Source: Comamonas terrigena NBRC 13299 (GTDB taxonomy: Bacteria; Pseudomonadota; Gammaproteobacteria; Burkholderiales; Burkholderiaceae_C). From it: a stretch of 64,000 nucleotides of DNA. The notes under the pieces are model-generated. The model had not been told where the DNA came from and did no database searches. It was given only the letters and a program-made list of their open reading frames with translations. A program made the position numbers and the translations under genes. The stretch covers positions 3,119,001 to 3,183,000 of the forward strand of contig NZ_AP019749.1 in the NCBI RefSeq assembly GCF_006740045.1, written 5' to 3'. Shown piece by piece: positions 11,208 through 47,030 of this stretch (the first letter of the stretch is position 1; every line of letters begins with the position of its first letter).

Positions 11208-12870
11208 GGGGCACGCAATCGAAAATGGTTTGGTTTATAGCTATCTGCGGTTCTCTGACCCTAAGCAATCCGCCGGCGGCAGCACGGACCGGCAACTGGC
11301 CTATGCCGCCAAGTGGGCGGCAGAGCATGGCCTAAAGCTGGACACGAATCTATCTCTGAGGGACGAAGGCCTATCGGCTTACCACCAGCAGCACATCAAG
11401 TCTGGGGCGCTGGGTGTGTTCTTGCGCGCCGTGGAGGACGGCCGCGTGCCCAGTGGGTCGGTGCTGATTGTGGAAGGTCTGGACCGCTTATCTCGCGCCG
11501 AACCGATCCAGGCACAGGCGCAACTGGCGCAGATTGTAAATGCCGGCATAACTGTGGTGACTGCCAGCGACGGCAAGACCTACAGCCGCCAACGGCTAAA
11601 AGACAATCCCATGGATCTGGTCTACAGCCTGCTGGTGATGATCCGCGCCCATGAGGAAAGCGACACGAAAAGCAAGCGGGTGAAGGCCAGCATCCGCCGC
11701 CTCTGCGAACACTGGATTGACGGCACGTACAAGGGCCGCATCAGACAGGGGAAAGACCCGCACTGGGTCAGGGAGCTGGACGAAGGCTGGGAGCTTGTGC
11801 CCGAGCGGGTGGCCGTGATCCGCCGCGTCCTGGCCATGTACCAGGACGGCATCGGCGGGCTCAAGATCATGGAGTCGCTGGAGCGCGAAGGCCTGCAGCT
11901 GCTGCCCGGTGCAGTCAACAACAGCCAGCAGGTCTACCGGCTGATAAAGCAGCACGCCCTGGCCGGCAGCAAAGAGGTCAGCGTGGACGGCGAGCTATTC
12001 CTGTTGCCCGACTACTACCCAGCAATCCTGACCGCTGAAGAGTGGAGCGAGCTGCAGCGCGTGGCGGCCGACAGCGGCCGCCGACGGGTGAAGGGAGAGC
12101 TGCCGCACCTTATTACTGGCCTGGGCATCACCACCTGCGGATACTGTGCCCGCCCCATGGCCGGACAAAATCTGGCGACAAAGCCACGCCTGCCTGATGG
12201 GCGCATTCGTGACGGCTACCGGCGCTTGCTCTGCGCTTCGGCCGCAGCCTACGGCGGTGGCTGCCCTGTGCCCGGGTCAACCAGTGTGGCGCCCGTGGAG
12301 CGGGCCATCATGTCCTATTGCTCGGACATCGTGAACCTGCAGGCCCTGTACGGCACGGACCGCAGCGAAGGTCCGCGCAAACGTGTGCACGCAGCAAGAC
12401 AGGCTGTCAAAGAGCTGCGCGACCAACTGGACAAGCTGACGGATGCCATGCTGGCGACCGCCAGCGAAGGCACCCCATTGGTATTTGCCCGCCGGGCAAG
12501 GCAACTGGAAGCCGATCTGGAGCACGCGGAGAAGGCGGCAGCCCAGGCCGAGCGGGAGTTGGCCAACCTGGCCAGGCAGGACATCACGGGCGCAGACGCC
12601 CGCTGGGCAGAACTCGCTGCCGGCGTAGAGGCCCAGAAAGTGGCCCCCCGCCTCAAGGCGCGCCAACTAATTGCCGACACATTCGAGAAGATCGTTGTCT
12701 ACCACCACGGGCTGCGCCCTGACCCAGACTCACTGCAGCGCGATTACCACATTGACTTGCTGCTGGTCGCCAAAGGCGGGAACACACGCATGCTACGCGT
12801 CGACCGGGAAGGCAATTGGATGGCGGGCGAAGAGACATCCACTATACAAAGCATCCACGAACGCAAATAA
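11206..12870 (+). CDS. Large serine recombinase (phage integrase)
   Basis: 554-residue large serine recombinase that integrates and, with a directionality factor, excises the prophage. The N-terminal resolvase domain has YLRFSDPKQ with the catalytic serine at about S17, and DRLSR further on. The recombinase domain follows, then a zinc ribbon near residue 310 (CGYC and a later C-x9-C pair), and a charged coiled-coil segment at about 395-470. The ATG at 11206 is chosen because family homology starts a few residues later, and GGGAG lies upstream; the frame also extends back through the att site, which would only be phage sequence in the circular form. The gene begins on the complementary strand of the rimO start codon. 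Confidence 0.93.
11234..11268 (-). promoter_or_regulatory. Possible replacement promoter for rimO inside the recombinase gene
   Basis: On the minus strand, TTGCTT (11263-11268) and GATAGC (11240-11245) are 17 bp apart, followed by an A/T-rich stretch 27-33 bp before the rimO start. This is the only promoter-like pair I see in the prophage-derived upstream region. Weak -10, no strong ribosome site; a guess only. Confidence 0.22.
12375..12390 (+). repeat. Dispersed CACGTG-type motif, variant copy 1
   Basis: GCGCAAACGTGTGCAC, one mismatch outside the free position to the prophage consensus GTGCANACGTGTGCAC. It lies within the recombinase coding sequence. Confidence 0.4.
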
Positions 12871-12977
12871 ACACCCCCTCAAGTCTGCGAACACGTGCCT
12901 ACACGGACTTGTTACATACCGACCCAGCCGAACCAATTGTGTAACCTTTATCATTAAGGGAAACAATAGGTGAATCG

Positions 12978-13553
12978 GTGACGAAAGAAAAAAAAGACCC
13001 TGATCTCAATAATGCTGTCACGAAGTACCAGCAGATACGAGTCGAGACCTACAGCGCTGCAGTCCGGCAGCTACGGATGACAACTACGGACAGTGCATTC
13101 GAGTCTCTAACAATTTCAGAAATTCGCGACCGTGCAGCCGAAGCCTATCTACAGCATTGGAATCACTCTCTCCGTCGCGTGCGCTGGAAGTGGCTCGAAA
13201 TGCGTGAACAACTGAGGATGAAACGGCCAAGCTACTGGGAGATGGCCATATGGCATAAGAACACACTCTGCGGGCTCGTGCTTGGGAAGCCTTCGCAGAA
13301 GCGCACTCGCCTTTACATTGAAGGCATCGAAGGTAACCCTGCACAGCACCCGCTCAAAGGGAAGATCATTGCGATTGCACTGATCGCCTCCGAGATGTAT
13401 GCTGACTCCATCGGATGCGATCAAGTTTGGCTTGTTGAGCCAGACCCTTTGCTTCTTGACACGTACAAACGTGCAGGATACAATCTCGTGCTCCCGAACA
13501 AACTCCTAAAAAGAGTCTTCAGACTTAAGAGTTTTGCAACTAAGGAACTGTGA
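12978..13553 (+). CDS. GNAT-like acetyltransferase domain protein (accessory)
   Basis: 191 residues, AT-richer than its surroundings. The C-terminal half has GNAT-type features: LCGLVLGKPS, a helix KIIAIALIASEMYADSIG that would contact acetyl-CoA, and the closing DTYKRAGYNLVLPN. The N-terminal 60 residues are charged and helical. GTG start at 12978 with AGGTGA just upstream. It lies between the recombinase and lysis genes with a small downstream partner and a terminator, the usual position for a lysogenically expressed accessory gene. Substrate unknown; the GNAT assignment rests on pattern only. Confidence 0.65.
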   Translation: MTKEKKDPDLNNAVTKYQQIRVETYSAAVRQLRMTTTDSAFESLTISEIRDRAAEAYLQHWNHSLRRVRWKWLEMREQLRMKRPSYWEMAIWHKNTLCGLVLGKPSQKRTRLYIEGIEGNPAQHPLKGKIIAIALIASEMYADSIGCDQVWLVEPDPLLLDTYKRAGYNLVLPNKLLKRVFRLKSFATKEL

Positions 13554-13560
13554 GGCCACC

Positions 13561-24735: not shown

Positions 24736-26232
24736 TTACGCCGCTTCTTCCGGGTACTGCAGACGGAACTGGTTCACCAGCGCGAACACGCGCAGCTGGT
24801 TGACATAGTCCGGCGGGAACAGCACGTCCACGCGATTGGGGTTTGTTGCACTGCGCTCCACGATCAAGTGCGTTTCGAACGCCTCCATGTTCTCCACAAT
24901 GCCCCGATCTTCCAGCTCTCCGTAGGCCCCAATCAGCTCACCACGAGCCACCACAGGGGTGAGGATTGCTTGGCCGGCCCCGTACTTGGTCCCATCGTTT
25001 GCCAGCTTGTGGCGCGGGTACTTGCTGGTGATGCGCGACTCCAGATAGCGCAGCACGTAGGAACTGGTGTGCAAGGTTTCGCTATCCAGGTAGCTGTCGT
25101 CCTCCACCCCGAAGCTGTTTTCTTGATAAGTAGTGACAGACCGCTCAATACGGTACGCACCTCCCTTTGCATTGGCAGTGGCAATGCCGCTGGTCAGCAG
25201 GCTCTGGCGTTCATTCAGCATGAACCGTTCACCCTCTGGCGCGGCATCGATGCCCGTCAGCACGCCGGTTTGCGTGGGCCGGGCCGGGTCAGCACCAATG
25301 AATACCGCAGTACGCGCCAGCCAGGCGCCGGCCACTTCCCATGCGGGCTGCGGCACACCAGGCTCAAAGCCATGCACCGTGGTGTGCTGGTCATTGCGCG
25401 TAGACCCGAAGGCCACCAGTTCACCCAGTTCACCACGGCGTGCACCGTACACGTGGCCGTAGATTTGCTGCGACCAGGACCAGCGGCCGGTGGAATCGTT
25501 CATCCAGTCGCGCAGCGCATTCAGGCTTCCGGCATCGGTGAAGGCGCAGCCGATGAACTCGAATGCTTCATCCCCCACGGCCGCCAGTGCATCCTGCAGC
25601 TCGGGGGAACCAGCGCCGCCAGCCATAGGCGTGAAGGCCACCGCAATGCCTGCAGGCGTGGACTCGCCACCGGCCGTGCCCAGGCGGTTGAGCTGCAGCT
25701 GGATGTCGTTGCCCAGCAGGCCCTTGAACTTGGCAGTCAGCGACACCACGCCCAACGCTGCCAGCGCCGTCACGTACATGCCCGCCTTGGCGTTGATGGC
25801 TGCGGCGGTCGCTGCGGCTACGGCCGTAGGCGTGTCACCGTTGACCACCGAAACCTGCACACGCACACCTGCGACGTACACATTCAACACCCCGCTGGCG
25901 GTTGCTGCGCCGGTGACGGTGATCTTGCCTGCAGCTGCAGCGCCCTGGGTCAGCTTGACCGGCAGGCACCACACTTCGCCAAAGGTGTCGTTCTTGCGGT
26001 AGGCCTGGTGCATGCCGTGCAGCACGCTGCCAATGCCGCCGATCTGGCCTGCCAGTTCGCTGCGGCTGACCAGGACCAGCTTGCCGATGCTGTCATGCTC
26101 CGCATCGTCGTTCACCTGGCCAATCACCAAGCTGCGCAGCGTGCTGCTGCCGCTGTTGGCCATGCTGCTGTCCATCTCTGCATAGAACAGAGGCACCCGC
26201 TGCGCGGGCGGGATGGTGCTACTGATTGCCAT
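24736..26232 (-). CDS. Contractile tail sheath protein (Mu gpL type)
   Basis: 498-residue sheath subunit. N terminus MAISSTIPPAQRVPLFYAEM with RSLVIGQVNDDAEH, a central domain inserted around KAGMYVTALAALGVVSLTAKF, and a C terminus (ENSFGVEDDSYLDSETLHTSSYVLRYLESRITSKYPRHKL, DVLFPPDYVNQLRVFALVNQFRLQY). This establishes a myovirus-type tail. Overlaps the preceding small gene by 14 bp. Confidence 0.93.
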   Translation of the reverse strand: MAISSTIPPAQRVPLFYAEMDSSMANSGSSTLRSLVIGQVNDDAEHDSIGKLVLVSRSELAGQIGGIGSVLHGMHQAYRKNDTFGEVWCLPVKLTQGAAAAGKITVTGAATASGVLNVYVAGVRVQVSVVNGDTPTAVAAATAAAINAKAGMYVTALAALGVVSLTAKFKGLLGNDIQLQLNRLGTAGGESTPAGIAVAFTPMAGGAGSPELQDALAAVGDEAFEFIGCAFTDAGSLNALRDWMNDSTGRWSWSQQIYGHVYGARRGELGELVAFGSTRNDQHTTVHGFEPGVPQPAWEVAGAWLARTAVFIGADPARPTQTGVLTGIDAAPEGERFMLNERQSLLTSGIATANAKGGAYRIERSVTTYQENSFGVEDDSYLDSETLHTSSYVLRYLESRITSKYPRHKLANDGTKYGAGQAILTPVVARGELIGAYGELEDRGIVENMEAFETHLIVERSATNPNRVDVLFPPDYVNQLRVFALVNQFRLQYPEEAA

Positions 26233-26440
26233 CGGACTTCACTCCCTTGGTTGCAGCGGCCTTGGCTGCGGGTTGAACAATCACCACATCGCCCACGGCG
26301 AGGCGGCGGCGCCAGTACACGTTGTGCGGCACCTCCATGCCCTCGGGCGGCATCAGCTGGTGCTGGCGCTCAGGCATGCGCACTGCACGCCCTTCGCAGG
26401 GTTTGACGTGCACACGTGTGCACTGCACGGTTTCAGTCAT
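26219..26440 (-). CDS. Mu gp38-like small protein (DUF2635)
   Basis: 73 residues with the family core PEGMEVPHNVYWRRRLAVGDVV. It precedes the sheath gene in Mu-like tail clusters; role unknown. A copy of the dispersed palindrome lies 17 bp inside its start and encodes TRVHV. Confidence 0.8.
   Translation of the reverse strand: MTETVQCTRVHVKPCEGRAVRMPERQHQLMPPEGMEVPHNVYWRRRLAVGDVVIVQPAAKAAATKGVKSDGNQ
26408..26423. repeat. Dispersed CACGTG palindrome, copy 2
   Basis: Perfect 16-bp palindrome GTGCACACGTGTGCAC, within the first 35 bases of the gp38-like gene. Confidence 0.7.
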
Positions 26441-32579: not shown

Positions 32580-34409
32580 CTATCCCTTCGCCGGAGCGGC
32601 AAAGAAGCCGTCCTTGTCACCTGAGTCATCCGGCTGCTGGAATCGGCCCAGTGCCATCACCAAAGCCACCACGCCGTCAATTCGGCCGTTCTGCTTGCTC
32701 TTTTTCTTGTCCGGCCGGTAATTGCCATTGCTGTCGAACAGCAGCGACACATTGCCCGCGCAATAGCGCAGCACCGGGTTGCCCCCGTGCGCCAGCTGCC
32801 CGCCGTAAACCAACGCCTCCAGCGCCTTGCTGCCCGGCCCCATGCCGTGCGTGTTCTGCGGGATGTTGACCATGGGCAGGCCTGCCGCCAGCAGGTTGTT
32901 CACCAGCTGCGTCGCATTCCAGTCATCAAAGCCCAGCTCGACAATGTCGTACTCCAGGCTTGCGGCTTTGATGTCACGCTCTACGGTGTCGTAGTCCGTG
33001 ACGTTGCCCGGCGTGACCTTCAACCACCCTTCATCTGCCCACTGCCTGTAGGCGGCTTCGTCCTCGGCCTCGGTCGCCAGCTTGGCCTCGGGGCACCAGT
33101 GCCACACCAGCACATGCACCGTGGTCTCCCCCTCCAGCGGGGGGAACACCAGCGCAAACGCTGTCAGGTCGCGCACGTTCGCCAGGTCAAGCCCACCAAA
33201 GCAGCGGCGCCCTCTGAGCATGGCCGGGTTGAAGGCCTTGCCGCGTGCGTCCCAAACCTGAATGTCAAACCAGCCTTCGGCGCTGTTGCACCAGATATTC
33301 AGGTCTTTGGTCAGGAAGTTGGCACGTGCACCTGGCAGCGCCTTTGCCTTGCGCGCCTGGGCGCGCATGTAGTCCCAGGTCTTGCTGCGGCCCAGCCCCG
33401 GGTTGGCCTTGATCCAGTTGCGTTCATCGTAGGGATCGTCCCCCACGTCCGGCGTGTAGATGTAGCCGAACAAGTCATCGTCCTGGCGCTTACCGTCCAG
33501 CACGCTGACCAGGTAGCTGCGTATCTCCACGCAAATGCCGTTCAGAATGAAGCCGGCAGTCGTGATGGCAGACAGCAGCGGCTGCAGTCGCGCGCCCAGT
33601 GCCGACTCCATCACGTCCCACACATCGCGGTCAGCCTGGGCGTGCAGTTCATCGAACAGGACCGCCGAAGGATTCAGGCCGTCCAGACTCTCGGCATTGG
33701 CAGGCAGCGGAGCAAACACGCTGGCGTCCATCTGCACGCGCTCTTGGTTCAAGCCCTCATGGATCTTGAAACTACGCTTGACCCCGGCGGAGCGCCGCGC
33801 CCAGCGTTTGATGTTGTCGAATGCCGGCTTGAACACCGACATGGCCTGCGCCCGGGTGGTCGCCACCGCATACACCTCGGCGCCTGCTTCGCCATCCATG
33901 GAGAACAGGTAGGCGCCTTGCGGCCCCGTCCATGTGCTCTTGCCGTTCTTGCGGGCCACCTCTTCATAGGCCCGCGTGAAGCGGCGGCGCATATCGTCTG
34001 CATGCCGCCAGCCGTACTTCACGGCCGTCCAGAACTTTTGCCAGGGGTCCAGCAGGATGGGTTTCCCAGCCAGCGGGCCTTTGATGTGCACAAAGAACCG
34101 CTCAATGAACTGGATCATGTGCCACGAGTAGCTGGGGGCAAACACCAGCCCACGGGCGCCGGCCTCCTGCAGGTCACGGTAGTGGCGCACCACCGCCAGG
34201 TAGGTGTAGCGGCCTGTGCAAATCTCATTGCGCAGCACGGGTAGCCCGTACTCCACATCCCACTGCTGCAGCTCCGCTGGAATCAGTGCGTCGGTCTGTT
34301 TCCGGGTGAGGCGGTACCGTGCGCGACGAGCGCGCCGAACAGGTCGTCCTGCCCGGCCTGCGCTCCCGTGTCCTTGCGCACTCGCGCCAAGGAGGGAATG
34401 GTCAAACAT
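32580..34409 (-). CDS. terL: Terminase large subunit
   Basis: About 609 residues. ATPase domain: LLDPWQKFWTAVKYGW, then the Walker A-like EEVARKNGKST and the Walker B VLFDELHAQ with the TerL coupling motif (SAITTAGF). Nuclease domain: GGLDLANVRDLTAFALVFP with catalytic aspartates, later GFDDWNATQLVNNL and RIDGVVALVMALG. The start is uncertain: the earliest sensible ATG (34409) overlaps the small-subunit gene by 127 bp in another frame, so a later or non-ATG start is possible. Confidence 0.93.
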   Translation of the reverse strand: MFDHSLLGASAQGHGSAGRAGRPVRRARRARYRLTRKQTDALIPAELQQWDVEYGLPVLRNEICTGRYTYLAVVRHYRDLQEAGARGLVFAPSYSWHMIQFIERFFVHIKGPLAGKPILLDPWQKFWTAVKYGWRHADDMRRRFTRAYEEVARKNGKSTWTGPQGAYLFSMDGEAGAEVYAVATTRAQAMSVFKPAFDNIKRWARRSAGVKRSFKIHEGLNQERVQMDASVFAPLPANAESLDGLNPSAVLFDELHAQADRDVWDVMESALGARLQPLLSAITTAGFILNGICVEIRSYLVSVLDGKRQDDDLFGYIYTPDVGDDPYDERNWIKANPGLGRSKTWDYMRAQARKAKALPGARANFLTKDLNIWCNSAEGWFDIQVWDARGKAFNPAMLRGRRCFGGLDLANVRDLTAFALVFPPLEGETTVHVLVWHWCPEAKLATEAEDEAAYRQWADEGWLKVTPGNVTDYDTVERDIKAASLEYDIVELGFDDWNATQLVNNLLAAGLPMVNIPQNTHGMGPGSKALEALVYGGQLAHGGNPVLRYCAGNVSLLFDSNGNYRPDKKKSKQNGRIDGVVALVMALGRFQQPDDSGDKDGFFAAPAKG

Positions 34410-34771
34410 GCTTTGGGCAGCCATTGGCCAAGCTCCATCTTGAGGCGGACCTCATCCTTGGCCCAGGGCGTTTCCGTAGCCCACCCCGTCTTTGACGTTT
34501 GGGTGCGACCTTTTTCCTCGCACAGCGCCACCGCCTTGAGCCAGTCCGCGAAGGTGCGAACAATCACAGCGATGGGGATACCTGCGGTCATGTGCTCGAT
34601 GCCGGCGTTGCGCAGCGAATCGCAGATGTAGTCGTACAGCTCTTGCTCATCGGCCGAGAACTGCAGCTGCTGGGGCGCAGCCGGAGATTCGATTTCTGTC
34701 TTGAGGCCAGCAACCTGCCCAGCCCCCACGGCTGGCGGCTGGACCGCAAAAGCCGGGGGCTTGTTGGTCAT
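34283..34771 (-). CDS. terS: Terminase small subunit
   Basis: 162 residues. FSADEQELYDYICDSLRNAGIEHMTAGIPIAVIVRTFADWLKAVALCEEKGR followed by VRLKMELGQWLPKACLTIPSLARVRKD is the P27/phi-family small terminase layout with a helical DNA-binding N domain and oligomerisation core. The ATG at 34771 is spaced correctly from AAGG. Immediately upstream of terL. Confidence 0.85.
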   Translation of the reverse strand: MTNKPPAFAVQPPAVGAGQVAGLKTEIESPAAPQQLQFSADEQELYDYICDSLRNAGIEHMTAGIPIAVIVRTFADWLKAVALCEEKGRTQTSKTGWATETPWAKDEVRLKMELGQWLPKACLTIPSLARVRKDTGAQAGQDDLFGALVAHGTASPGNRPTH

Positions 34772-36255: not shown

Positions 36256-36271
36256 GTGCATACGTGTGCAC
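36256..36271. repeat. Dispersed CACGTG-type motif, copy 4
   Basis: GTGCATACGTGTGCAC, matching the consensus except at the free sixth position; intergenic, just upstream of the gene starting at 36236. Confidence 0.6.
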
Positions 36272-36658: not shown

Positions 36659-39145
36659 TCAGAACGGCAGCGGTTCATCGCCCTCTGCCCATGCACCCGG
36701 CTGCGCCGGTGCGTTTGTCATTGCTCCAGGCTGCTGATCTGCAGGCTGCGCGTGCGGCAAGCCCGCACCAGGGCGCTGCCGCAAAAAGCCACGGCGCCGC
36801 ATCAGCCCCTTGGTATCGCGGTGGGCCTTGAACCCAAGTACCTTCATGGCGTTGCTGATGCGGGTATCCATCTGGCCGTTACCGTCAATGCGGTCAGCCT
36901 TGATGCCCAGCACGTCATACAGCTCAACCCGGGGGAAGAAGTCGCGCCCGCTCGGTGGCAGATCGGCTGCTTTCAGCCCTTCCGACCCGTTCACATAGGC
37001 ATCCAGCATGTCCTCCCATGGGTCGGACCGCTTGAACTGCTCTTGCGCCGGAAACACCAGCCGCCGTTCCTCTTCCGGGGTGGGCCAATAACGCTCCCCC
37101 TTCTCCAAACGGGCAAAGGCCTCGGCCAGGAGCTGGGCACGTTGCTGCCGCAGCTCCTCCACGTCCACCGAAAACACCTCAAGCGGCCAAAAGCGCCGGT
37201 CCCCGGTGGCATCACGCAAAAAGGCGTCGGCATTGGTCGTGCCCACATTCACGGAATGCCGGGGCGCCTTCACCATCTTTGAACCATAGGGCGGGCGGTA
37301 CCAATCCTCTTGGGCAGACAGGTACTGCTTAATCGCCGTCGAATCCGACTTGTTCAGCGACTCCAGCTCGGCCGACTCAGCAATCCAGGCCAACTGGATC
37401 GCCATCTGGCTATCCTTCTCGCCCACCCGGATCGCGTTGTCCGTGAAGTACGGGTAGGCCAGCTCCCGGAACGCGCTGGACTTCTTCAGACCCTGCTCAC
37501 CCTTGATGATGAGCATGTAGTCAAACTTGCAGCCAGGTCGCAGCGCACGGTTGACCAAACCCATCATGAAGCACTTGCCAATCAGGCGCACGTACTCCGA
37601 ATCCTCCACCCCGTAGACATCCACCAGCCAATGCTCCAGGCGGTCTACCCCGTCCCATGGCTCGGCTTTAATCAGGTCAATGATCGGGTTGTACTTGCAG
37701 CCCCGCGCTGCCATCTGCACACCGTGTGAGATGGTGCTGGTGGCCCGCACAGCAAGGCCGTGGGTGCGCAACAGGTACTCACCCAGCATCCAGTCATCTT
37801 CCTCATCCCAGTCACCAGCGCCCCGGCCCCAAGGCACATCGCCGCCGCGCTCCAGCAAGCGGCTGAACTCGTTGAATCGCACAGCGCCCCGCAGCTCCGG
37901 GTCCCACTGCATGCAATACATCACGTTCTCGCGGCAATCCATGGGGCGGCCACGGGCAAGCACCAGCTTGCGCTCCAGCTCCGCCCGGCACTCTTCAGGC
38001 GTCAAGCCGTCAGCTGCATCACCATCCGTGGGCAACTTCGCCCCCCCAGCGGCAGCACCATCGTTCGATTTTTTTTCTTCCGGCTGGGCCTTCTCTGCTT
38101 CCGCCTCAGCAGGCGCGGGTGCAGGTGCCTGAACAGGCGCGGGGGCATGCTGCGGGGCCAAGGGCTGCAACTGCACACCCACCAAGGGGGCAAGCCAGCG
38201 CAAGGCATCACCTGGCTTCGCAGTGCCCGGCCCCCACTCCATCACCAGATCCACCGGCGTGCGCTTTCCTCCCCTGGCATCGCCCATATCGGCCACGCCC
38301 CAGTCCTTGATGCCCTCGGGGTGGATGACCAGATCCTCCTGCAGGTCGCGCCCCAGGTCCTTGCTGGTCACACGGTAGGACGGCCCCTTCTTGAACGCAC
38401 GCCCCCCAAACAAGGCTGGCACCCATGCGTCAAAGTTCAGCATGGCTTCGTCGTTCACATACCGGAAGTCGTCGCGCCCCTGGCGGTCTGCAGCTTGTTT
38501 ACGCTGGGCAGGCGCTGCGCAGGCGGCAGGCTTCAGCCGGTCCTTGGCCTCTTGAATCGTGGCATGCAGGCGCCGCAGCGCCGCTTCATCCACCGGCATC
38601 ACATCAGCCGGTGTATTGGCCACCTGGCGCCCTGTCACAGTGAAATACTGGCGCTCGCAGAACATCTCCACGCCAATGTCATTGGACTTTGCCGTGGTCG
38701 TGTGTCCCTGCACATACAGGTGCACCCCAGTGCCACTGGGGGAAAGCTCCGTGTAGGTGTGGAACGCCTGAATAATCTTGGCGCACCGGTCATTCATTGC
38801 ACCGGTGCTGGCATCCACCATCTTGTCCAGGTCAATGCCAATCAGGCCATCCCCAGGCAAAAAGCCAAAGCCCACACCACTCCAGGCATCAGGCTGCCCC
38901 TGCTTGCGCTCAAACGCCCTGCGCACCACCTCCAGGGTCGCCAGCCGCATGCGGTCGCGGTCGCTGCCCTGGTCACCAGTCCGTCGCCCGCCCATGGCGT
39001 AGTACGGCACCTTCAGCCAGGTGCTGCGCTTTGTGTCCCATTCATACTTCCACAGCACCCACTGCTGCCGCAGCGCCAAGCTGGCCGGGATGGCATCCCA
39101 CAGCGGCGGCTCCACCACGGGTGGCACACGCACTTCATCAACCAT
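36659..39145 (-). CDS. Primase-helicase (prim-pol N domain plus VirE-type ATPase)
   Basis: 828 residues. N-terminal archaeo-eukaryotic-type primase/polymerase domain: QQWVLWKYEW, GFGFLPGDGLIGIDLDKMVD (metal aspartates) and ELSPSGTGVHLYVQG. A Pro/Ala/Lys-rich linker lies near residues 335-385. The C-terminal virulence-associated-E superfamily-3-like helicase has the Walker A IIKGEQGLKKSS, the sensor segment WIAESAELESLNKSD, and GDRRFWPLEVF. It would prime and unwind at the phage origin. Member of the minus-strand early operon that begins with the Cro-like gene. Confidence 0.92.
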   Translation of the reverse strand: MVDEVRVPPVVEPPLWDAIPASLALRQQWVLWKYEWDTKRSTWLKVPYYAMGGRRTGDQGSDRDRMRLATLEVVRRAFERKQGQPDAWSGVGFGFLPGDGLIGIDLDKMVDASTGAMNDRCAKIIQAFHTYTELSPSGTGVHLYVQGHTTTAKSNDIGVEMFCERQYFTVTGRQVANTPADVMPVDEAALRRLHATIQEAKDRLKPAACAAPAQRKQAADRQGRDDFRYVNDEAMLNFDAWVPALFGGRAFKKGPSYRVTSKDLGRDLQEDLVIHPEGIKDWGVADMGDARGGKRTPVDLVMEWGPGTAKPGDALRWLAPLVGVQLQPLAPQHAPAPVQAPAPAPAEAEAEKAQPEEKKSNDGAAAGGAKLPTDGDAADGLTPEECRAELERKLVLARGRPMDCRENVMYCMQWDPELRGAVRFNEFSRLLERGGDVPWGRGAGDWDEEDDWMLGEYLLRTHGLAVRATSTISHGVQMAARGCKYNPIIDLIKAEPWDGVDRLEHWLVDVYGVEDSEYVRLIGKCFMMGLVNRALRPGCKFDYMLIIKGEQGLKKSSAFRELAYPYFTDNAIRVGEKDSQMAIQLAWIAESAELESLNKSDSTAIKQYLSAQEDWYRPPYGSKMVKAPRHSVNVGTTNADAFLRDATGDRRFWPLEVFSVDVEELRQQRAQLLAEAFARLEKGERYWPTPEEERRLVFPAQEQFKRSDPWEDMLDAYVNGSEGLKAADLPPSGRDFFPRVELYDVLGIKADRIDGNGQMDTRISNAMKVLGFKAHRDTKGLMRRRGFLRQRPGAGLPHAQPADQQPGAMTNAPAQPGAWAEGDEPLPF

Positions 39146-39219: not shown

Positions 39220-39504
39220 TTACCCCCAGCAGCGCTGCAGCTGCGTAAAACCATCCTGCGGGGCCACTGCCTTGCGGCAGGGCAACGCATACTCCGCCAC
39301 CGGCTTTTTGCAGTGCGGCACCCGTCGCGTCCGGGGCACATCCAGGCGGCCATAGCGGCGCATGTTCAGCAGCGTCTGCTGGGCCACCTTTAGCCCCACC
39401 TGTGCAGCAGCGGCAATCTCTTGGGCAGTCAGGCCACGCTCGTCGGTAGCCAGTCGTTGCACAGCTTCCAGCAGTGCCTTGCTCACATCACCTGCGGGCC
39501 GCAT
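39220..39504 (-). CDS. Small helix-turn-helix-like protein
   Basis: 94 residues. LLEAVQRLATDERGLTAQEIAAAAQVGLKVAQQTLLNMRRYGRLDV is a winged-helix pattern (MarR/DUF-type), followed by a basic tail. Start and the previous stop share one base (TAATG). Probably a DNA-binding replication accessory or regulator. Confidence 0.65.
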   Translation of the reverse strand: MRPAGDVSKALLEAVQRLATDERGLTAQEIAAAAQVGLKVAQQTLLNMRRYGRLDVPRTRRVPHCKKPVAEYALPCRKAVAPQDGFTQLQRCWG

Positions 39505-40022
39505 TACTGCACCTCCAGGCCAGCGCTGCGGCGCACATTGCGGCGCAAGCGCAAGAGCAGCAATACAAATTCCATGATCTGGGCATCGGCCTCTTCCGCC
39601 TCCGGCACACTCATGTGGTGGTCATCCGTGGCCATGGTCAGGAACTGGGTCAGCACCCCCTTCTTCACGCTGGCCTGCAGCAACTTTTCCTTGATCGCGG
39701 TTATCTCGCAGGGCCACCCGCCAGCAGGGGGCGGGGGCAGCTCCATCGTCACCATCCCGTGCTGAATGCTCAGCGCCTGCAGCCACTGCAAAGCGTTAGG
39801 CTCGCGGATCTCTTGCAGCCACTCCGTCAGCAGCTCCAGCACTTCCACGTTCACCCATTGGCCGTCCACGCCGCGCAGGCGGGCACGCAGATATTCAGAG
39901 TGGATAGACACCCCCCGGCGGTCGGCCAGGAAGGCGGCGGCAGCCTTCACGCCGCCATTGGCGCCGCGCACCGTGTTGTAAAGAACGTCGCGCCAGTCAG
40001 TGGGCGAAAGTCGGCAGGTCAT
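39504..40022 (-). CDS. CII-like / CP76-type regulatory protein
   Basis: 172 residues, N terminus WRDVLYNTVRGANGGVKAAAAFLADRRGVSIHSEYLRARLRG with a helix-turn-helix-like segment, and a mixed helical C terminus. This shape and position (second or third early gene, before replication genes) fit the phage CII/CP76 regulatory group; the assignment is from pattern and context only. Confidence 0.55.
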   Translation of the reverse strand: MTCRLSPTDWRDVLYNTVRGANGGVKAAAAFLADRRGVSIHSEYLRARLRGVDGQWVNVEVLELLTEWLQEIREPNALQWLQALSIQHGMVTMELPPPPAGGWPCEITAIKEKLLQASVKKGVLTQFLTMATDDHHMSVPEAEEADAQIMEFVLLLLRLRRNVRRSAGLEVQ

Positions 40023-40634: not shown

Positions 40635-41135
40635 ATGCAAGATAATCAATCCGCATCCGGAATGGCATCGCAGTTAGATTCAGTCAGTCCTGACTTACCC
40701 AAAACTGTTACGTCTATGCCTCTCTTCGACAGCCGCCCAGTGCTGTGGAAAAACATCGCCGCGCTCATGCTCAAGAAGTACGGACGCGAAAATTTGAATC
40801 AGCTGGCCCGCGAAGCCAAGTTCGGCCCCGCCACAGCATCACGCATCAAAGCTCAGGACACCTCTGTCGGTATCGAAGTCATTGATCGCGTTGCCACAGT
40901 GCTGGGAGTGCACCCGTGGCAACTTCTGCACGAAGACTTCAATCCTGAATTTCCGAGCAACAGCACGAACCTCAGTCCGCTAGCGCTCGACCTTGCCCAG
41001 CAGCTCGACGCTATCCCAGATCAGACAGCCCGCGAAAAGGCACATGCTCTGGCAACTCAGGTGCTATCACTTGCGGCCGCCTCGATAACAGCACCGCCCT
41101 CGCCCGAAGAGCCACCCACGCAGCAGCCTGGCTAA
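40635..41135 (+). CDS. CI-like phage repressor (HTH only, no protease domain)
   Basis: 166 residues. Central helix-turn-helix (WKNIAALMLKKYGRENLNQLAREAKFGPATASRIKAQDTSVGIEVIDRVATVLGVHPWQLL) and a short C terminus. There is no S24 self-cleavage domain, so induction cannot be by RecA-stimulated autoproteolysis. No ribosome site at ATG 40635; a later ATG at residue 28 is possible. Confidence 0.8.
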   Translation: MQDNQSASGMASQLDSVSPDLPKTVTSMPLFDSRPVLWKNIAALMLKKYGRENLNQLAREAKFGPATASRIKAQDTSVGIEVIDRVATVLGVHPWQLLHEDFNPEFPSNSTNLSPLALDLAQQLDAIPDQTAREKAHALATQVLSLAAASITAPPSPEEPPTQQPG

Positions 41136-41701: not shown

Positions 41702-42421
41702 ATGCAGACAGCGACCAGTGCACACGTGTGCACACAAAACACCCCCGGGGAATACATCAGCGGCCTGCCCGCGTGGGACCGCGTGCCGCGCCTGGATGCG
41801 TGGCTTCCCCACGTGCTGGGCGAATCGCCCCAAAGTGCCGGCATGCACCGCATGCAGTACCTCACCCTGGTGGGTCGGCAGTGGCTGATGGGCATGGTGC
41901 GCCGCGCACAAGAGCCCGGCAGCAAATTTGACTTCACGCCGGTGCTCCAAGGCCCTCAAGGGAAGGGCAAATCCGCCCTGCTGCGCGTGCTAGTGGGCAA
42001 AGCCTTTTTCAGCGATGACGCCGGCCCCATCAGCTGGGGCAAAGGCTCGCTGGAAGAAATACAAGGCGTGTGGCTCTACGAAATCAACGAGCTGACGGCA
42101 TTCCGAGCTGCGGAGATGGATGGCATCAAAGCATTCATCAAAAGCACCACGGACAGCTACCGCCCGCCTTACAGCCAACAAGCCGAGTTCTACAAGCGCC
42201 AGTTTGTGGTGGCAATCACCACGGACAGCACCGTCCTGCACAAGGACCGCATCGGCCGCAGCTATTGGGTGGTCCCTGTGTGGAATCAAGTCAACACCCA
42301 ATGGCTGGGCGAACACCGCGACCAGCTTTTTGCCGAAGCCCTGGCACGCAACAAGGCAGACCTGAACGGCCGCGTGCAAGACCTGAACTACCACCCCGGC
42401 AATCCTCTGTGTGGCCGGTAA
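41702..42421 (+). CDS. Stand-alone VirE-type P-loop ATPase
   Basis: 239 residues, homologous in pattern to the C-terminal helicase half of the phage's own primase-helicase but with no primase domain. Walker A LQGPQGKGKSALL (a full G-x-x-G-x-G-K-S), then VWLYEINELTAFRAAEMDGIKAFIKSTTDSYRPPY, FVVAITTDSTVLHKDRIGRSYWVVPV. GGAG lies 7 bp before ATG 41702. It heads the rightward operon. It may be a helicase-loading or interfering paralogue. It ends before the C-terminal extension of the large protein, so it could also be a shortened relic kept under selection. Confidence 0.8.
   Translation: MQTATSAHVCTQNTPGEYISGLPAWDRVPRLDAWLPHVLGESPQSAGMHRMQYLTLVGRQWLMGMVRRAQEPGSKFDFTPVLQGPQGKGKSALLRVLVGKAFFSDDAGPISWGKGSLEEIQGVWLYEINELTAFRAAEMDGIKAFIKSTTDSYRPPYSQQAEFYKRQFVVAITTDSTVLHKDRIGRSYWVVPVWNQVNTQWLGEHRDQLFAEALARNKADLNGRVQDLNYHPGNPLCGR
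41718..41733. repeat. Dispersed CACGTG palindrome, copy 5
   Basis: Perfect GTGCACACGTGTGCAC, 16 bp inside the first gene of the rightward operon. Confidence 0.7.
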
Positions 42422-42433: not shown

Positions 42434-42673
42434 ATGAACACAGCTACCACTCCACGCCGCAACACCCCGGGCCGCGTGCCCATTCTGGGTGATCTGGTCC
42501 TGGCAGATGAAGCCACAGCGCGCCCCGCAGCCCACAAGGTGCCCATTACCCTGGACGGCCCCTACCCCAAGCGCCTGCGCCGCGTAGTCCGTGCTCGCCG
42601 CACCTGGGGCGCTGCCCTGGTGGTGATCGCCGTCACCCTGGCGTTGCATGGCCTGCGGCACTTCATGGGGTAG
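42434..42673 (+). CDS. Small membrane protein, unknown
   Basis: 79 residues; basic N-terminal region (KRLRRVVRARRTW) followed by one membrane helix (GAALVVIAVTLALHGL). TAAGGAG precedes ATG 42434. No family recognised. Confidence 0.6.
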   Translation: MNTATTPRRNTPGRVPILGDLVLADEATARPAAHKVPITLDGPYPKRLRRVVRARRTWGAALVVIAVTLALHGLRHFMG

Positions 42674-42675
42674 CC

Positions 42676-42777
42676 ATGGCCCGCAAAACCATCAAGGCCA
42701 TTGCCGCCCACCTGATGACCGTGGCACTGGCCACGGCCGCAGCTGCGGTCCAAACCCTGCCAGGAGCGCATCCATGA
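42676..42777 (+). CDS. 33-residue small protein
   Basis: Starts 3 bp after the previous stop and overlaps the next ATG by 4 bp (ATGA). MARKTIKAIAAHLMTVALAT is a basic start plus a hydrophobic helix, a possible membrane peptide. Supported mainly by the tight packing of this operon. Confidence 0.45.
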   Translation: MARKTIKAIAAHLMTVALATAAAAVQTLPGAHP

Positions 42778-43097
42778 CTACCGAACCTCTGGTGGAAGTT
42801 ATCGGCACCTTGGCCGAGCCACCCCGGCCGCAGATGCAGCCCGTGGGCGAAGCAGGCGATGCCCTCCCCGTGCTGAAGCTGGTGCTGCAGGACTGCGGTG
42901 TCAGCAATAAGCGCCTGACCGCAACCCAAGTGTTCCCCGTGGGCGGAATGGCCGCCTGCCACCACCGCGCCGCACAGCTGCAAGTCGGCATGCGGCTGCG
43001 CCTGCAGACGCCGGCTTCCCACATCGAATGGCACATGGCCGATGTGCACCACATCCACATCATCAAACCCGAAACCCAGGAGCAAGCAAATGCCTGA
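42774..43097 (+). CDS. Hypothetical phage protein, beta-rich
   Basis: 107 residues: VEVIGTLAEPPRPQMQPVGEAGDALPVLKLVLQD, CHHRAAQLQVGMRLRLQTPASHIEWHMADVHHIHI. Alternating strands with a closing histidine-rich strand suggest a small OB-like fold, possibly nucleic-acid binding; this is inference. Translationally coupled on both sides. Confidence 0.55.
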   Translation: MTTEPLVEVIGTLAEPPRPQMQPVGEAGDALPVLKLVLQDCGVSNKRLTATQVFPVGGMAACHHRAAQLQVGMRLRLQTPASHIEWHMADVHHIHIIKPETQEQANA

Positions 43098-43725: not shown

Positions 43726-43985
43726 CCACATCTCGCCTCACGCCTGAGCAACAGGCAGAGAACAGACGCCTTTGGACCATCGCAGTCGAGAACGCCAAAC
43801 GCACTCTCAAGGCCGGCGACCGCCTCCGCGTCACAAAGTGCCCCGGCACAAAGCGGTGGATCACCTTCGCCGGATGGGACGGCAATTGGATCGTCTCCAA
43901 GTCAGGAATCAACGACTTCAGCCCACGCTGCGTGGACCGCGTCAACAGCTTGGCAGTTGACTTCACCCAGGAAGGCACAGCATGA
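43722..43985 (+). CDS. Small hypothetical phage protein
   Basis: 87 residues: LTPEQQAENRRLWTIAVENAKRTLKAGDRLRVTKCPGTKRWITFAGWDGNWIVSKSGIND. Basic, KOW/SH3-like in appearance, with ATGA overlaps at both ends. Encoded directly before the ParB-like protein. Confidence 0.6.
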   Translation: MTTSRLTPEQQAENRRLWTIAVENAKRTLKAGDRLRVTKCPGTKRWITFAGWDGNWIVSKSGINDFSPRCVDRVNSLAVDFTQEGTA

Positions 43986-46264
43986 CCGACGCACACGACA
44001 CCATCACCCATGCCATCCCGGCGGCCGGCGCCGGTGCTGGCTTCGCGCACCTGCCCGTGTTGAGCATTGCCCGTAGTCTGACAAACCCGCGCAAGCACTT
44101 CGACCCGGTATTCCTGCAGGAGCTGGCAGACAGCATCAAGGCCACGGGCGTGCACCAGCCTATTCTGGTTCGCCCTTTGCCCGCCCACCGCGTGGCAGAT
44201 GAACAGGCATGGGCCAAGACCGAGAAGCGCGAGCGCGCACAGTACGAACTGATCGCCGGGGAACACCGCTGGCGTGCCTGCCAGATGGCGGGCATGGCCG
44301 AGATACCGGCGATGATCCGCGACATGACCGACGCCGAGGCACTGGAAGCCCAGGTGATTGAAAACCTTCAGCGCAAAGACGTGTCCGAGCTGGAGGAAGC
44401 CGAGGGCTTTCAGGTGCTGATGCAGCACCAGGGCATCAGCGCCGACCAGATGGGCGCCAAGATCGGCAAGAGCCGCGCCTATGTGTATGGCCGACTCAAG
44501 ATACTGGACCTGTGCGAAGAGGGGCGCCAGGCATTGCGGGAGGGCAAGCTGGACTATTCCTGCGGCTTACCCATTGCCCGCATTCCCAACGAGCAACTGC
44601 AGCTCAAAGCCCTGCAGCGTGCAATTGCCCCTCATGGGGGCTGGAACGACGGTGGCCGCAGCCGCATGAGCGCCCGCGAAGTCCAGTATATGTGCCAGAG
44701 CGAATTCATGACCAAGCTGGAATATGCCCGGTTTGATCGTGAGGACGCCACCTTGTGCGCCACCGCCGGCGCCTGCTCCACTTGCCCTAACCGGACCGGA
44801 GCCAACCCCGATCTGTTTACGGACGTGGACAGTGCAGACGTGTGCACAAACCCACCCTGCTTCAAAGCCAAGGAAGAAGCCCACGCAGTGCGCGTGCGCA
44901 AACAAGCCCAGGACATGGGCTGCGAGATCATCGACGGCCGCGCTGCCAAGGAACTGGTGCCCAGCGCCTATTCCGGCGGGGTCACCGGCTACCTGCGGCT
45001 GGACAGCCCATCTGACAGCCCCGTCAAAGGCAAGACGCTGCGCAAGCTGACGCACAAGGCACTTGAGGAGTCAGGCATCAAGCCGACCATGGTGGTCAAC
45101 CCCCATGACGAGAAAGAACTGATTGCCGTGGTGACGCCCAACCAGGCCGAAGAACTGCTGAAGATGGCCGGCAAGGCCGAAGCCCACAAGCAGCTGCTGG
45201 CCGACAACGAGCGCGACGCCAAACAGAACGAGCAGAACCAGAAAAAGCAGGCTGAAGAAACCTACGAGCGCGATTGGCGCACCGAGGTTGCCCGACAGAT
45301 TGCGGTGCACACCAAAGAGCCAAGCGACGCCTGCCTTGTTACTGCCGCCCGCATGGTGACGCAGCACCTGGCCACATCCCTCAATGGCGAATATGCCAAG
45401 GAGCTGTGCAAGATGCTGGAGCTGGGCAAGGTAGCCCCCAAGGATGCGATACGCGACCTGGCGAACGATTGGGCGCACCCAATCGCCCTGGCGGGCGCAA
45501 TCCTTGCCTTGCGCGATAAGCACTACTCCCCTTGGTACTACGAGCACAACCCCTCGGCACCGCGCAATCCCGAACTGATGGCAATGGCAGAGGCTTGCGG
45601 TGTTGATGTGGAAGCCATCAAGGCCCAGGTGAAGGCCAACATGCGCGCAGCGGCCAAGCAATCCGCCAACCCGGCGGAGGGCGATACACCCCTTCCTCCG
45701 GCTGCGCGTGCTGGCGCGGATGGCAAAGGTGGCAAAGCCAAAAAATCCAAAAATCCCGCTGCGCGTGCGGCCGAGGATGCGGAAAAGCTCAGCTCCGCTG
45801 CGGCCACCGCCGGCATCGCTGCCGCGCTGCAGTCGTTGTCCGGGGATGCAGCACCAGGCGCGGCCGAAGCCGCGCTAGGCGACGAAGCGGTGCCAGTCGC
45901 GGCTGCGGCCGCGCAGGCACCGGCACCCCTGGTGACATTGAAGCGACCCAAGCCGACCGCGCCCGCCGCTGACACCCCAGCCAGTGGGGGGCAGCAGGAA
46001 CCTGCCGGCGATGCCCAGGACAGTGCAGACGCAAAGACTGCCACGGCGCCTAAGCAGGTTTACACGCCCGAAGAACTGCTGGCAAACCGCGTGACCGTGC
46101 TGCCCAATGCAACGGGCCGGGGCAAGAAAATCTACATCGGGGACGAAGGCACGGTGGTGGCCATCATGGGCGACGCTGCGGTGGACGTGTCTTTCCCTGG
46201 CCCCAAGGGCTGCAAGCCCGTGCGCGTGGCATTCCACGTAACCGAACTGGAGCTGGCGGAATGA
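43982..46264 (+). CDS. ParB-like CTPase/DNA-binding protein, phage-encoded
   Basis: 760 residues. The N-terminal ParB domain carries the CTP-clamp motifs: TNPRKHF (34-40), GEHRWRA (93-99) and ENLQR (127-131). A central helix-turn-helix follows (GISADQMGAKIGKSRAYVYGRLKILDL, about 150-180), then cysteines arranged as a zinc site (CATAGACSTCPNR and CTNPPC), a charged helical region, an Ala/Pro/Lys-rich linker at about 550-690, and a KOW-like end (GDEGTVVAIMGDAAVDVSF). No ParA gene is in the prophage. Palindromes with a parS-like CACGTG centre are dispersed over the prophage, one within this gene. Confidence 0.85.
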   Translation: MTDAHDTITHAIPAAGAGAGFAHLPVLSIARSLTNPRKHFDPVFLQELADSIKATGVHQPILVRPLPAHRVADEQAWAKTEKRERAQYELIAGEHRWRACQMAGMAEIPAMIRDMTDAEALEAQVIENLQRKDVSELEEAEGFQVLMQHQGISADQMGAKIGKSRAYVYGRLKILDLCEEGRQALREGKLDYSCGLPIARIPNEQLQLKALQRAIAPHGGWNDGGRSRMSAREVQYMCQSEFMTKLEYARFDREDATLCATAGACSTCPNRTGANPDLFTDVDSADVCTNPPCFKAKEEAHAVRVRKQAQDMGCEIIDGRAAKELVPSAYSGGVTGYLRLDSPSDSPVKGKTLRKLTHKALEESGIKPTMVVNPHDEKELIAVVTPNQAEELLKMAGKAEAHKQLLADNERDAKQNEQNQKKQAEETYERDWRTEVARQIAVHTKEPSDACLVTAARMVTQHLATSLNGEYAKELCKMLELGKVAPKDAIRDLANDWAHPIALAGAILALRDKHYSPWYYEHNPSAPRNPELMAMAEACGVDVEAIKAQVKANMRAAAKQSANPAEGDTPLPPAARAGADGKGGKAKKSKNPAARAAEDAEKLSSAAATAGIAAALQSLSGDAAPGAAEAALGDEAVPVAAAAAQAPAPLVTLKRPKPTAPAADTPASGGQQEPAGDAQDSADAKTATAPKQVYTPEELLANRVTVLPNATGRGKKIYIGDEGTVVAIMGDAAVDVSFPGPKGCKPVRVAFHVTELELAE
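44832..44847. repeat. Dispersed CACGTG-type motif, copy 6
   Basis: GTGCAGACGTGTGCAC, consensus except at the free sixth position; inside the ParB-like gene, encoding ADVCT. Confidence 0.55.
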
Positions 46265-46506
46265 AAGCCGTAGACCACAAGCTCTGCAAGAAATGCAATG
46301 AAGAGTGGCCGGCTGATACCGAGTTTTTCTACTCGCAGCCGGGCGGCTATCTGAACCTGGCGCACTGCTGCAAGGCTTGCTACAAGGAGCACGTGCGCCG
46401 GGCTGATAGCCGCCGCAAGGAGCCCGTTGCAGCCGCCGCCCCACGAATCACCGACTGCCTGCAAGGCCTGCTGACTGGCCTGCTGCACCAAGGAGCCCGC
46501 GCATGA
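46261..46506 (+). CDS. Small zinc-binding protein
   Basis: 81 residues. CKKCNEEWPADTEFFYSQPGGYLNLAHCCKACYKEHVRR gives a C-x2-C ... C-x2-C zinc-ribbon/HNH-like core of the type seen in truncated HNH proteins, without the catalytic histidines. ATGA overlap with the ParB-like stop. Confidence 0.65.
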   Translation: MKAVDHKLCKKCNEEWPADTEFFYSQPGGYLNLAHCCKACYKEHVRRADSRRKEPVAAAAPRITDCLQGLLTGLLHQGARA

Positions 46507-47030
46507 GCCGCACCCGCTTTTTCCGCAGCGGTGGCAAGCCACAAGGCGATCCGCTGAAGGCTATCAACCACCACCACACCTTGCTCAAGGCCCAGGAAGT
46601 GGCGGACACCATGCAGCCCCTGCGCGATGGCTTCGGCGTGATGCGCGCCGGGGTGGCGTCCCATGACCATTACGTGGTGGTTTACACCATCTTCCGCATC
46701 GCCAGCGAGATTGAGAAGCAAGGCGTTGTGCGCGGCCTGGCTGAACACATTCAGCAAGCCCTGCAGGCATGCGACAGCTACTACAGCAGGTGCATGTGTG
46801 CAGACGTATGGACAGCGCACGAGCTGGAATTCTCCGAGCTGGACGCCATGGCCAACATGATCGAACTGCACGAGTTCCAGCTTAAGCAGTTGACGCTTGC
46901 AGAGCTACATGCTGCTGCCAGGAAGCTGATCGCCCGCACGCAAAGCACCGGGGGCGAGGTCTACCGGGCCGACATCGACCTGAAGAACATGAAGCCCATG
47001 CAACAACAAAAACAAGGAGTGCCGGCATGA
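46503..47030 (+). CDS. Hypothetical phage protein
   Basis: 175 residues, largely helical: PLKAINHHHTLLKAQEVADTMQPLRDGFGVMRAG, then EIEKQGVVRGLAEHIQQALQACDSYYSRC and ELDAMANMIELHEFQLKQLTLAEL. Common in prophages of this family beside ParB-like genes, as far as I recall; function unknown. Coupled to both neighbours. Confidence 0.62.
   Translation: MSRTRFFRSGGKPQGDPLKAINHHHTLLKAQEVADTMQPLRDGFGVMRAGVASHDHYVVVYTIFRIASEIEKQGVVRGLAEHIQQALQACDSYYSRCMCADVWTAHELEFSELDAMANMIELHEFQLKQLTLAELHAAARKLIARTQSTGGEVYRADIDLKNMKPMQQQKQGVPA
46798..46813 (+). repeat. Dispersed CACGTG-type motif, degenerate copy 7
   Basis: GTGCAGACGTATGGAC, two mismatches to the consensus outside the free position, with an adjacent GTGCATGTGTGCAG. 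Weakest member. Confidence 0.3.

Follow-up and report, generated by a model that had tools for sequence, protein, structure and literature searches.

A prophage-encoded orphan ParB and its predicted dispersed cognate sites in Comamonas terrigena NBRC 13299

Genetic organization of the prophage

The window analysed here is a stretch of 64,000 nucleotides from the genome of C. terrigena NBRC 13299, and it contains a contractile-tail prophage that encodes a ParB-type protein. The genes and the copies of a palindromic motif that bear on the analysis are as follows.

11140..12870, + strand: large serine recombinase (Resolvase, Recombinase and zinc ribbon domains in Pfam), probably the prophage's integrase, at its left end
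12375..12390: site with one mismatch, GCGCAAACGTGTGCAC, within the serine recombinase gene
24736..26232, - strand: tail sheath of a contractile-tail phage
26408..26423: site GTGCACACGTGTGCAC between the tail terminator and sheath genes
29120..29143: perfect 24-bp palindrome with the site at 29124-29139, immediately downstream of the major capsid gene
29166..30386, - strand: major capsid protein (MCP)
32580..34424, - strand: terminase large subunit
36256..36271: site GTGCATACGTGTGCAC downstream of the VapE primase
36659..39145, - strand: VapE-domain primase/helicase
39504..40022, - strand: CII-like activator
40635..41135, + strand: Cro/C1-type repressor candidate, heading the + strand run that includes parB
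41718..41733: site GTGCACACGTGTGCAC in the interval from the repressor candidate to parB, some 0.9 kb ahead of the gp39-type gene
42648..43097, + strand: gp39-type gene, related to gp39 of phage VarioGold (annotated as ssDNA-binding protein)
43982..46264, + strand: parB, orphan ParB-type protein of 760 amino acids
44832..44847: site GTGCAGACGTGTGCAC within parB, on the codons for S-A-D-V-C-T
46798..46813: weak site GTGCAGACGTATGGAC downstream of parB, one mismatch to GTGCANACGTNTGCAC
47323..47337, + strand: terminator-like hairpin 3' of the parB gene run

Because the serine recombinase gene adjoins a MiaB-type gene (Radical SAM, UPF0004 and TRAM domains), the left boundary of the prophage is probably near 11.1 kb, to the left of the IMG/VR record, and the motif copy at 12375 therefore probably falls within the prophage. 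The gp39-type gene has no direct match to gp39 of VarioGold, and the two are connected by a shared matching place in nine relative loci and in G003, a parB-less phage of the same kind. A kinase gene related to VarioGold gp37, proposed at 43042-43725 adjoining parB, was not borne out on comparison. In the parB region, the terminator scan as a whole performed no better than chance (11 found versus 8.9 expected), and the promoter scan yielded nothing exceeding chance.

The ParB protein and the lack of a ParA

A sequence-only reading of this DNA had ascribed three ParB CTP-clamp motifs and a ParB-type helix-turn-helix to the 760-residue protein, and its place among the ParB-type proteins is borne out by matches to ParB_N (PF02195, residues 22-130, E 3.5e-25) and HTH_ParB (PF17762, residues 133-216, E 1.1e-13), together with the CTP boxes GEHR (GERR-like) and ENLQR (ENxQR). 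Simple expressions for these two boxes are satisfied in 81 and 90, respectively, of the 102 family members, the window ParB included. Four invariant cysteines (residues 265-293) are followed by a helical middle and a disordered linker, and in the structure model the protein ends in a beta domain (about 696-760), while residues 1-17 are modelled with low confidence. The C-terminal dimerisation domain PF23552 is absent from the Pfam matches of the window ParB up to E 1, and an alternative dimer interface is possible. Moreover, by profile as well as by fold, the protein matches structures of ParB, Noc and KorB in the nucleotide-bound state.

The same reading had found no ParA and doubted a role in partition, and the present searches agree with it. 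ORFs of at least 80 amino acids with the ParA-type motif KGGxxK[ST], searched in the 102 ParB loci (for the most part some 10 kb on the upstream side of parB), were matched in six loci; they have 104-152 or 864-902 residues, none is of ParA length, and at least two are VapE primases. In the window prophage, no ParA was found by this search or among those ORFs, a part of the total, that were put to Pfam, and the ParA-binding motif [LFI]G[KR]G[LFI] occurs in 0 of the 102 ParBs. These results bear on partition proper, either from a dispersed centromere with the help of a host ParA or as a leftover of a plasmid-prophage life like that of N15. The IR centromere sites of N15 are dispersed, and its Sop system includes SopA. 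In the account given in PMC7205306, N15 is a linear plasmid prophage that depends on active partition and has the Sop system and the centromere sites IR1-4. SopB/IR resembles the present case in that the phage encodes a relative of ParB and itself carries several inverted repeats as sites, and one relative in the present set is listed as a circular plasmid of 36.9 kb. However, no ParA-like gene is seen nearby, the sites differ from those of N15, and the window phage, its relatives Aval and VarioGold and the Comamonas plasmid all encode integrases; we thus consider partition quite unlikely.

Distribution of the palindrome in the host genome

The motif GTGCANACGTGTGCAC has five exact copies in the host genome of 4,673,011 bases, at 26408, 29124, 36256, 41718 and 44832 of the window, all within the prophage, and in the whole host genome a single copy with one mismatch lies outside it (C1:1881917). 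All five positions had been named in the sequence-only reading, as had the poorer copies at 12375 and 46798, the 24-bp palindrome around the copy at 29124, which was read directly, and the want of a full copy in the flanks. Its view that the clustering is not due to chance also held: at up to three mismatches, with both strands counted, the window has 15 matches at eight places versus 4.4 expected, and 0 of 100 shuffles reach 15. It had described three of the copies as perfect palindromes centred on CACGTG; across the relatives the motif is the 16-bp palindrome GTGCANACGTNTGCAC, in which the centre ACGT is conserved and CACGTG is not required. This palindrome, the predicted cognate site of the phage ParB, is dispersed and not gathered at one centromere. 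The host has its own ACGT-centred palindrome and its own ParB with HTH_ParB, but the canonical parS sites of the host, GTTTCACGTGAAAC, are found at C1:32-38 kb, close to its own parB gene at 40.8 kb, whereas the exact phage sites are confined to the prophage, and the half-sites differ.

Linkage of the palindrome to parB in relatives

The palindrome is likewise dispersed in relatives whose ParBs are only 35–44% identical to that of the window. Aval, VarioGold and the Comamonas plasmid (ParB identity 43%, 35% and 44%) have 7, 6 and 6 matches at up to three mismatches where about 0.3 would be expected, numbers that none of 100 shuffles reached for any of the three, and 95 dereplicated ParB loci have 169 sites within one mismatch, while 30 control palindromes made from the shuffled half-site have 0–3 sites each in the same loci. 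Furthermore, the sites recur at the same places, namely behind the MCP and VapE genes, close to the gp39-type gene and within parB: Aval, VarioGold and G003 share the position just downstream of the major capsid gene, relatives carry a site of the VapE/gp49 region that is comparable to that at 36256, and they have another upstream of, or at the start of, the gp39-type gene.

The sites could instead serve a protein of replication, packaging or integration whose gene accompanies parB. VapE and parB are often together (39 of 52 VapE-selected loci), parB-less G003 retains VapE and five sites, and 5 of the 13 VapE loci without ParB retain one site. Nevertheless, among 33 relatives selected by capsid, all three with ParB have 4–6 sites and all 30 without ParB have 0–1 (Fisher p 2e-4), which rules out a link to the capsid. 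In the VapE-selected set, at least two sites outside parB are found in 28 of the 39 ParB loci versus 1 of the 13 without ParB, which is G003 (p 6e-5), and a link to VapE is thus disfavoured. The kinds of integrase also differ, serine in the window and tyrosine in VarioGold, and this explanation is very improbable.

There are exceptions to the pairing. Even when one mismatch is allowed, no site is present in 20 of the 95 ParB loci, most of which are fragments some 15 kb long; this is the first of two patterns that speak against the pair, and it is confined to a minority, the motif being present in the remainder. At the same threshold 40 of 95 have no site outside parB, as is the case for 7 of the 39 VapE-selected ParB loci, several of which have a closely similar recognition helix. 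Clustering of palindromes in the site-less loci yielded no convincing alternative motif and, save for the most distant members, their recognition helices are not clearly different, so that covariation between helix-turn-helix and motif could not be demonstrated. The second pattern, the motif without ParB, is also a minority (5 of 22 multi-site records): besides G003, with its five sites, no ParB match was found in the satellite-like element G014 (four sites), the unrelated 76.8 kb phage G001 (11 sites), G007 (three sites in 113 kb) and G008 (three sites in a record that looks truncated). Hosts of the G014-type satellite include IMG 2808606525 and 2808606527.

Codon choice and spacing of the sites

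One site falls on the S-A-D-V-C-T codons of parB and two satellite sites fall on similar V-C-T codons, so the codons of the conserved cysteine motif might merely resemble the palindrome. At the in-parB site, however, AGT is used in 48 of 61 cases (2.9 expected) and GCA in 53 of 76 (10.4 expected), and where G replaces S, GGT is used in 16 of 24 (2.8 expected); these choices are far from the gene's own usage, and those of T and A co-occur (Fisher p 2e-6). Together with the intergenic copies, such as that after the capsid gene, the codon test rules out a coding coincidence, to which we give practically no weight. The in-parB site is under synonymous constraint and kept by rare codons.

Spacing was analysed in 20 genomes, namely 16 of the 22 multi-site records (G037 included) plus the window, Aval, VarioGold and the Comamonas plasmid; the other phages G001 and G007, the fragments G008, G011 and G024 and the satellite G014 were left out, as was the degenerate in-parB copy of VarioGold. 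Six of the 20 genomes have sites spaced more evenly than random at P < 0.05. The median P is 0.27 and the combined p 1e-5, which is only suggestive because the relatives are not independent.

Another possibility is that the phage repressor or CII uses the sites as dispersed operators or stoperators, unconnected with ParB, and dispersed repressor sites are described for mycobacteriophages in PMC9283540. But among the window, Aval, VarioGold and the Comamonas plasmid the site stays constant, whereas their CI candidates match each other at E 0.002 at best, which disfavours this explanation; the argument is weaker for CII, since the CII candidates of Aval and the plasmid, alone among the four, are clearly related (35%, 2e-20). 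Three CI queries find matches in just 18 of the 102 ParB loci and the CII queries in 66, and the rare codons at the in-parB site also speak against operators, which we regard as most improbable.

The protein family, the motif, its dispersal and its linkage to parB are established at the level of sequence. The idea of the sequence-only reading that ParB and the dispersed palindromes form a pair is strongly supported by the relatives, the in-gene codon test and both selected controls, and we consider the pairing by itself highly probable and the pairing together with clamp loading fairly likely.

Possible role of the ParB and comparison with known systems

The reading that best fits these data is that the orphan ParB would load at scattered sites and coat the phage DNA in the manner of Noc or KorB, with no ParA involved and not for partition. 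We infer the steps of binding, CTP switching and sliding, their timing and their function. The prophage would encode both the orphan ParB and its loading sites; ParB dimers would recognise the 16-bp palindrome, bind CTP, close and slide away, and clamps from about one site per 7 kb could span most of a phage genome of 36-40 kb. The coat would most likely form on induced or replicating phage DNA, since parB lies in a + strand run behind the repressor candidate, together with the gp39-type gene, and it might organise, mark or regulate that DNA.

No single biological role, be it silencing, packaging, replication or organisation of the genome, can be held more than tentatively. It is possible, though doubtful, that the same pair acts in long-range regulation like KorB or VirB, with clamps sliding to promoters and silencing or activating phage genes with a partner such as the repressor. 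The window ParB matches the KorB structures 8qa8/8qa9 by fold and sequence, and parB is placed behind the repressor candidate. KorB of plasmid RK2 is also a ParB-type clamp on a mobile element, with operators up to kilobases from the promoter, from which it acts with KorA as described in PMC11790492; however, no KorA-like partner common to the family was identified in the non-systematic comparisons made here, the repressor candidates vary between phages, and many sites lie within genes or at gene ends. KorB-type regulators rely on a partner repressor to lock the clamp in place at promoters. Marking of the genome, with sites tiled roughly every 6–8 kb from which a CTP-switched clamp coats the whole phage genome in lytic growth, and with satellites that took up the sites but not the clamp, which would act on them in trans, is a rather unlikely reading. 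Noc, the nucleoid occlusion protein of Bacillus and Geobacillus, is alike in its ParB-type clamp, its dispersed cognate sites and its independence of ParA, and its structure 7nfu is matched by residues 22-215 or so of the window ParB, which differs in being carried by a phage, in the sequence of its candidate sites, and in having a long middle part with cysteines and a beta domain at the C-terminus. Noc also has an N-terminal membrane-targeting helix and inhibits division.

Orphan ParBs are frequent in prophages. A PNAS 2025 survey (PMC12704722) describes prophage ParBs with the ParB fold and without the ParA-binding motif, and the window ParB resembles them in these respects; the passages of that survey considered here name no cognate DNA sites for them, whereas here a candidate target set, with recurring places and a codon-kept in-gene copy, can be named from sequence for such a protein. 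VarioGold, which was induced with mitomycin from an environmental Variovorax (lysogen ZS18.2.2), has both the ParB and the sites, so that it would allow direct tests of binding, of sliding and of what a parB deletion does. Our results suggest that phages of this temperate family use a clamp to mark and coat their own DNA. If the genome-marking reading is true, satellite DNA would be treated as the helper's own by the helper ParB in trans, and if the satellite reading is true, the sites of ParB would constitute a new type of signal between helper and satellite.

Distribution of the palindrome in the host genome

Motif scan of the window placed exact copies of GTGCANACGTGTGCAC at 26408, 29124, 36256, 41718 and 44832, together with a copy with one mismatch at 12375 and one with two mismatches at 46798, in agreement with the five full and two poorer copies of the sequence-only reading. 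Its observation that full copies are absent from the flanks extends to the complete 4.67 Mb host genome, where all five exact copies fall inside the prophage. The sole one-mismatch copy beyond the prophage is located at C1:1881917 in host genome coordinates (L010, G000:C1:1872000-1891900). Only two HTH_ParB matches are present in the host genome, namely the chromosomal ParB (C1:40.8 kb) and the phage ParB, and the canonical parS occurs near the former at C1:32-38 kb (two exact copies and two with one mismatch).

Organization of the prophage

The prophage probably extends from the gene for a large serine recombinase as far as about 47.3 kb, and no att sites were found. The features concerned are the following (window coordinates):
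11140-12870, large serine recombinase, adjoining a MiaB-type gene
41702-42421 (plus strand), second VapE-like domain of 239 aa between the repressor candidate and parB; a motif site overlaps the first codons of this ORF
42648-43097 (plus strand), gp39-type gene, related to gp39 of Variovorax phage VarioGold
43042-43725, gene with matches in its C-terminal half to several PHROG families lacking an assigned function; by tblastn it matches VarioGold within the gp34 gene, on the opposite side of parB there
43982-46264 (plus strand), parB, encoding 760 aa
47323, terminator-like hairpin, 3' of the parB run
47642-47685 and 48929-48972, 44-nt direct repeat (95%), corresponding to the 3' end of a chemotaxis receptor gene
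47834-48844, unassigned ORF in the ~1.3 kb between the 44-nt repeats

The minus strand carries the contractile-tail, capsid, portal, ClpP-type protease, terminase, VapE primase and CII-like genes, while the repressor candidate, small genes and parB are on the plus strand. The hairpin scan was overall no richer than chance. The IMG/VR record of this prophage is 32,067 bp and ends about 765 bp beyond parB. The ~1.3 kb bracketed by the 44-nt repeats is perhaps a separate small insertion.

The ParB protein

Both ParB_N and HTH_ParB were clearly matched by Pfam, as expected for the ParB-type protein with a helix-turn-helix that had been read from the sequence. The family profile aligns with the solved ParB, Noc and KorB sequences over approximately positions 20-235, and the family is large, with 1477 proteins at E ≤1e-10 among 7994 scored candidates, 120 of which were listed. 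In the AlphaFold model (mean pLDDT 78, pTM 0.50, alignment of 25 sequences) the ParB core is followed by a helical middle and then, past a disordered linker, by a C-terminal beta domain; Foldseek matched the model to ParB, Noc, KorB and other phage ParB-like proteins. Moreover, the invariance of C265, C268, C288 and C293 in the family suggests that these four cysteines form a metal site.

Sites in the relatives with ParB

The palindrome is dispersed in each of Acidovorax phage Aval, Variovorax phage VarioGold and the Comamonas odontotermitis plasmid NZ_CP083453, whose ParB proteins show 43%, 35% and 44% identity to that of the window, respectively. The last (L003) is a phage of this kind with an integrase gene, yet it is listed as a circular plasmid of 36.9 kb. 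Alignment-based scans yielded 78 viral loci, the window prophage among them, and 21 genome loci, whose hosts, going by the record titles, belong to the Burkholderiales or are unresolved proteobacteria. Together with the three relatives above and the window, the set amounts to 102 ParB loci, and 95 remained after removal of seven duplicates, mostly as fragments of ~15 kb. Within one mismatch, sites are found inside parB in 66 and outside parB in 55 of the 95 loci, 169 sites in total versus 0-3 for each half-site-shuffled palindrome (n=30). The expectation that relatives with this ParB carry the motif stands for 75 loci with at least one site, but not for the rest, which have none within one mismatch.

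Recurrent site positions in the 23 loci shown are downstream of the capsid gene, the VapE/gp49 region, the neighbourhood of the gp39-type gene and parB itself. The density in twenty genomes is about one site per 7 kb (108 sites, 778 kb), and the spacing is more even than random at P <0.05 in six of them.

The site inside parB sits on codons for S/G-A-D-V-C-T, a peptide stretch that was required, irrespective of its codons, by one of the two scan patterns behind the locus set. After six genes with unlocated codons and seven duplicates were dropped from the 102, the 89 unique genes used AGT for serine at this place in 48 of 61 cases (2.9 expected from the same genes), GGT for glycine in 16 of 24 (2.8 expected) and GCA for alanine in 53 of 76 (10.4 expected).

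Linkage between the palindrome and parB

The exact 16-mer GTGCACACGTGTGCAC was found in 65 stretches of IMG/VR, from which 48 contigs were counted; eight were ParB loci already known, and the other 40 were examined whole. At least three sites are present in 22 of the 40, and the supposition that the motif does not occur without ParB holds for 17 of these, which encode the protein, but not for the five that show none. Among the 18 contigs with one or two sites, ParB is encoded in two.

In the capsid-selected control (best 80 of at least 563 confirmed matches), 33 loci with a record of at least 28.8 kb were used. ParB was found in three, having 4, 6 and 6 sites, and of the 30 in which it was not seen, 27 have no site and three have one. 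In the VapE-selected control (best 78 of at least 580 confirmed matches), 52 loci with at least 7 kb upstream were counted; of the 39 loci with ParB, 28 have two or more sites outside parB, 4 have one and 7 have none, and the corresponding numbers for the 13 without are 1, 5 and 7. In the 26 uncounted loci the upstream sequence falls short of 7 kb; outside parB they carry 0-3 sites, and ParB was not seen in them. Sequence comparison overall shows a closer linkage of the palindrome with parB than with capsid, VapE or repressor.

Site-bearing records without a ParB match

G003 (L289/L290) is a phage of this kind, sharing with the window 72% identity in the capsid and 75-81% in the terminase. Three of its five sites are in corresponding places (after the capsid gene, at gp49 and before the gp39-type gene). 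Its gp39-type gene and integrase are separated by an AlpA-like gene and one for an OLD-like protein; parB is absent from this interval. G008 stops shortly past a site, probably before the expected place of parB.

G014 (L291) resembles capsid-forming satellites in its anatomy: it encodes an integrase, a small HTH protein and an AAA_25 protein, has capsid, protease, portal and HNH genes as well as a terminase match, and no tail gene was found among ten ORFs put through Pfam. There are 6 motif matches within two mismatches versus 0.12 expected. The sites of this satellite-like record without ParB, to which L299 and L304 are related, lie at 2827, 3437, 7121 and 9337. Among 19 capsid-selected loci including G014, three have sites (≤2 mismatches) and 16 do not; the three are G014, a 95% relative with four sites and a locus with a single site. 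Their site at the end of the protease gene varies in its letters and is still within one mismatch of the consensus.

In addition, the 76.8 kb phage contig G001 (L294-L297) has 11 palindrome copies and no match to the query genes or to ParB. Three of the 11 precede an open frame of 220 codons or more by at most 30 bp and could be operators. G007 has three sites in 113 kb and no match to ParB.

Possible roles

A ParB-like domain is remarked on in the paper on VarioGold, the available part of which makes no mention of a repeat, palindrome or parS (PMC9658991), and the word ParB is absent from the accessible portion of the main text on Aval (PMC11619371). Orphan ParBs on prophages are reported in the part available of a 2025 ParB-fold survey (PMC12704722). 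In the literature searched there was no paper with GTGCACACGTGTGCAC, and no title or abstract opening on this site set was found, satellites and stoperators included in the search.

As far as sequence can tell, a ParB-family protein occurs together with a constant palindrome dispersed around the phage genome, and no ParA was seen, as had been noted before. By analogy with its family, ParB would load at the sites in a CTP-gated manner and then slide, and the gene order suggests an early, replication-phase use. Comparison was made with N15 and KorB, as described in the available parts of PMC7205306 and PMC11790492, respectively. Three candidate roles remain for this system: organising or marking the genome in the course of lytic growth, regulation over long distances in the manner of KorB, and a partition-like function with partners unspecified.
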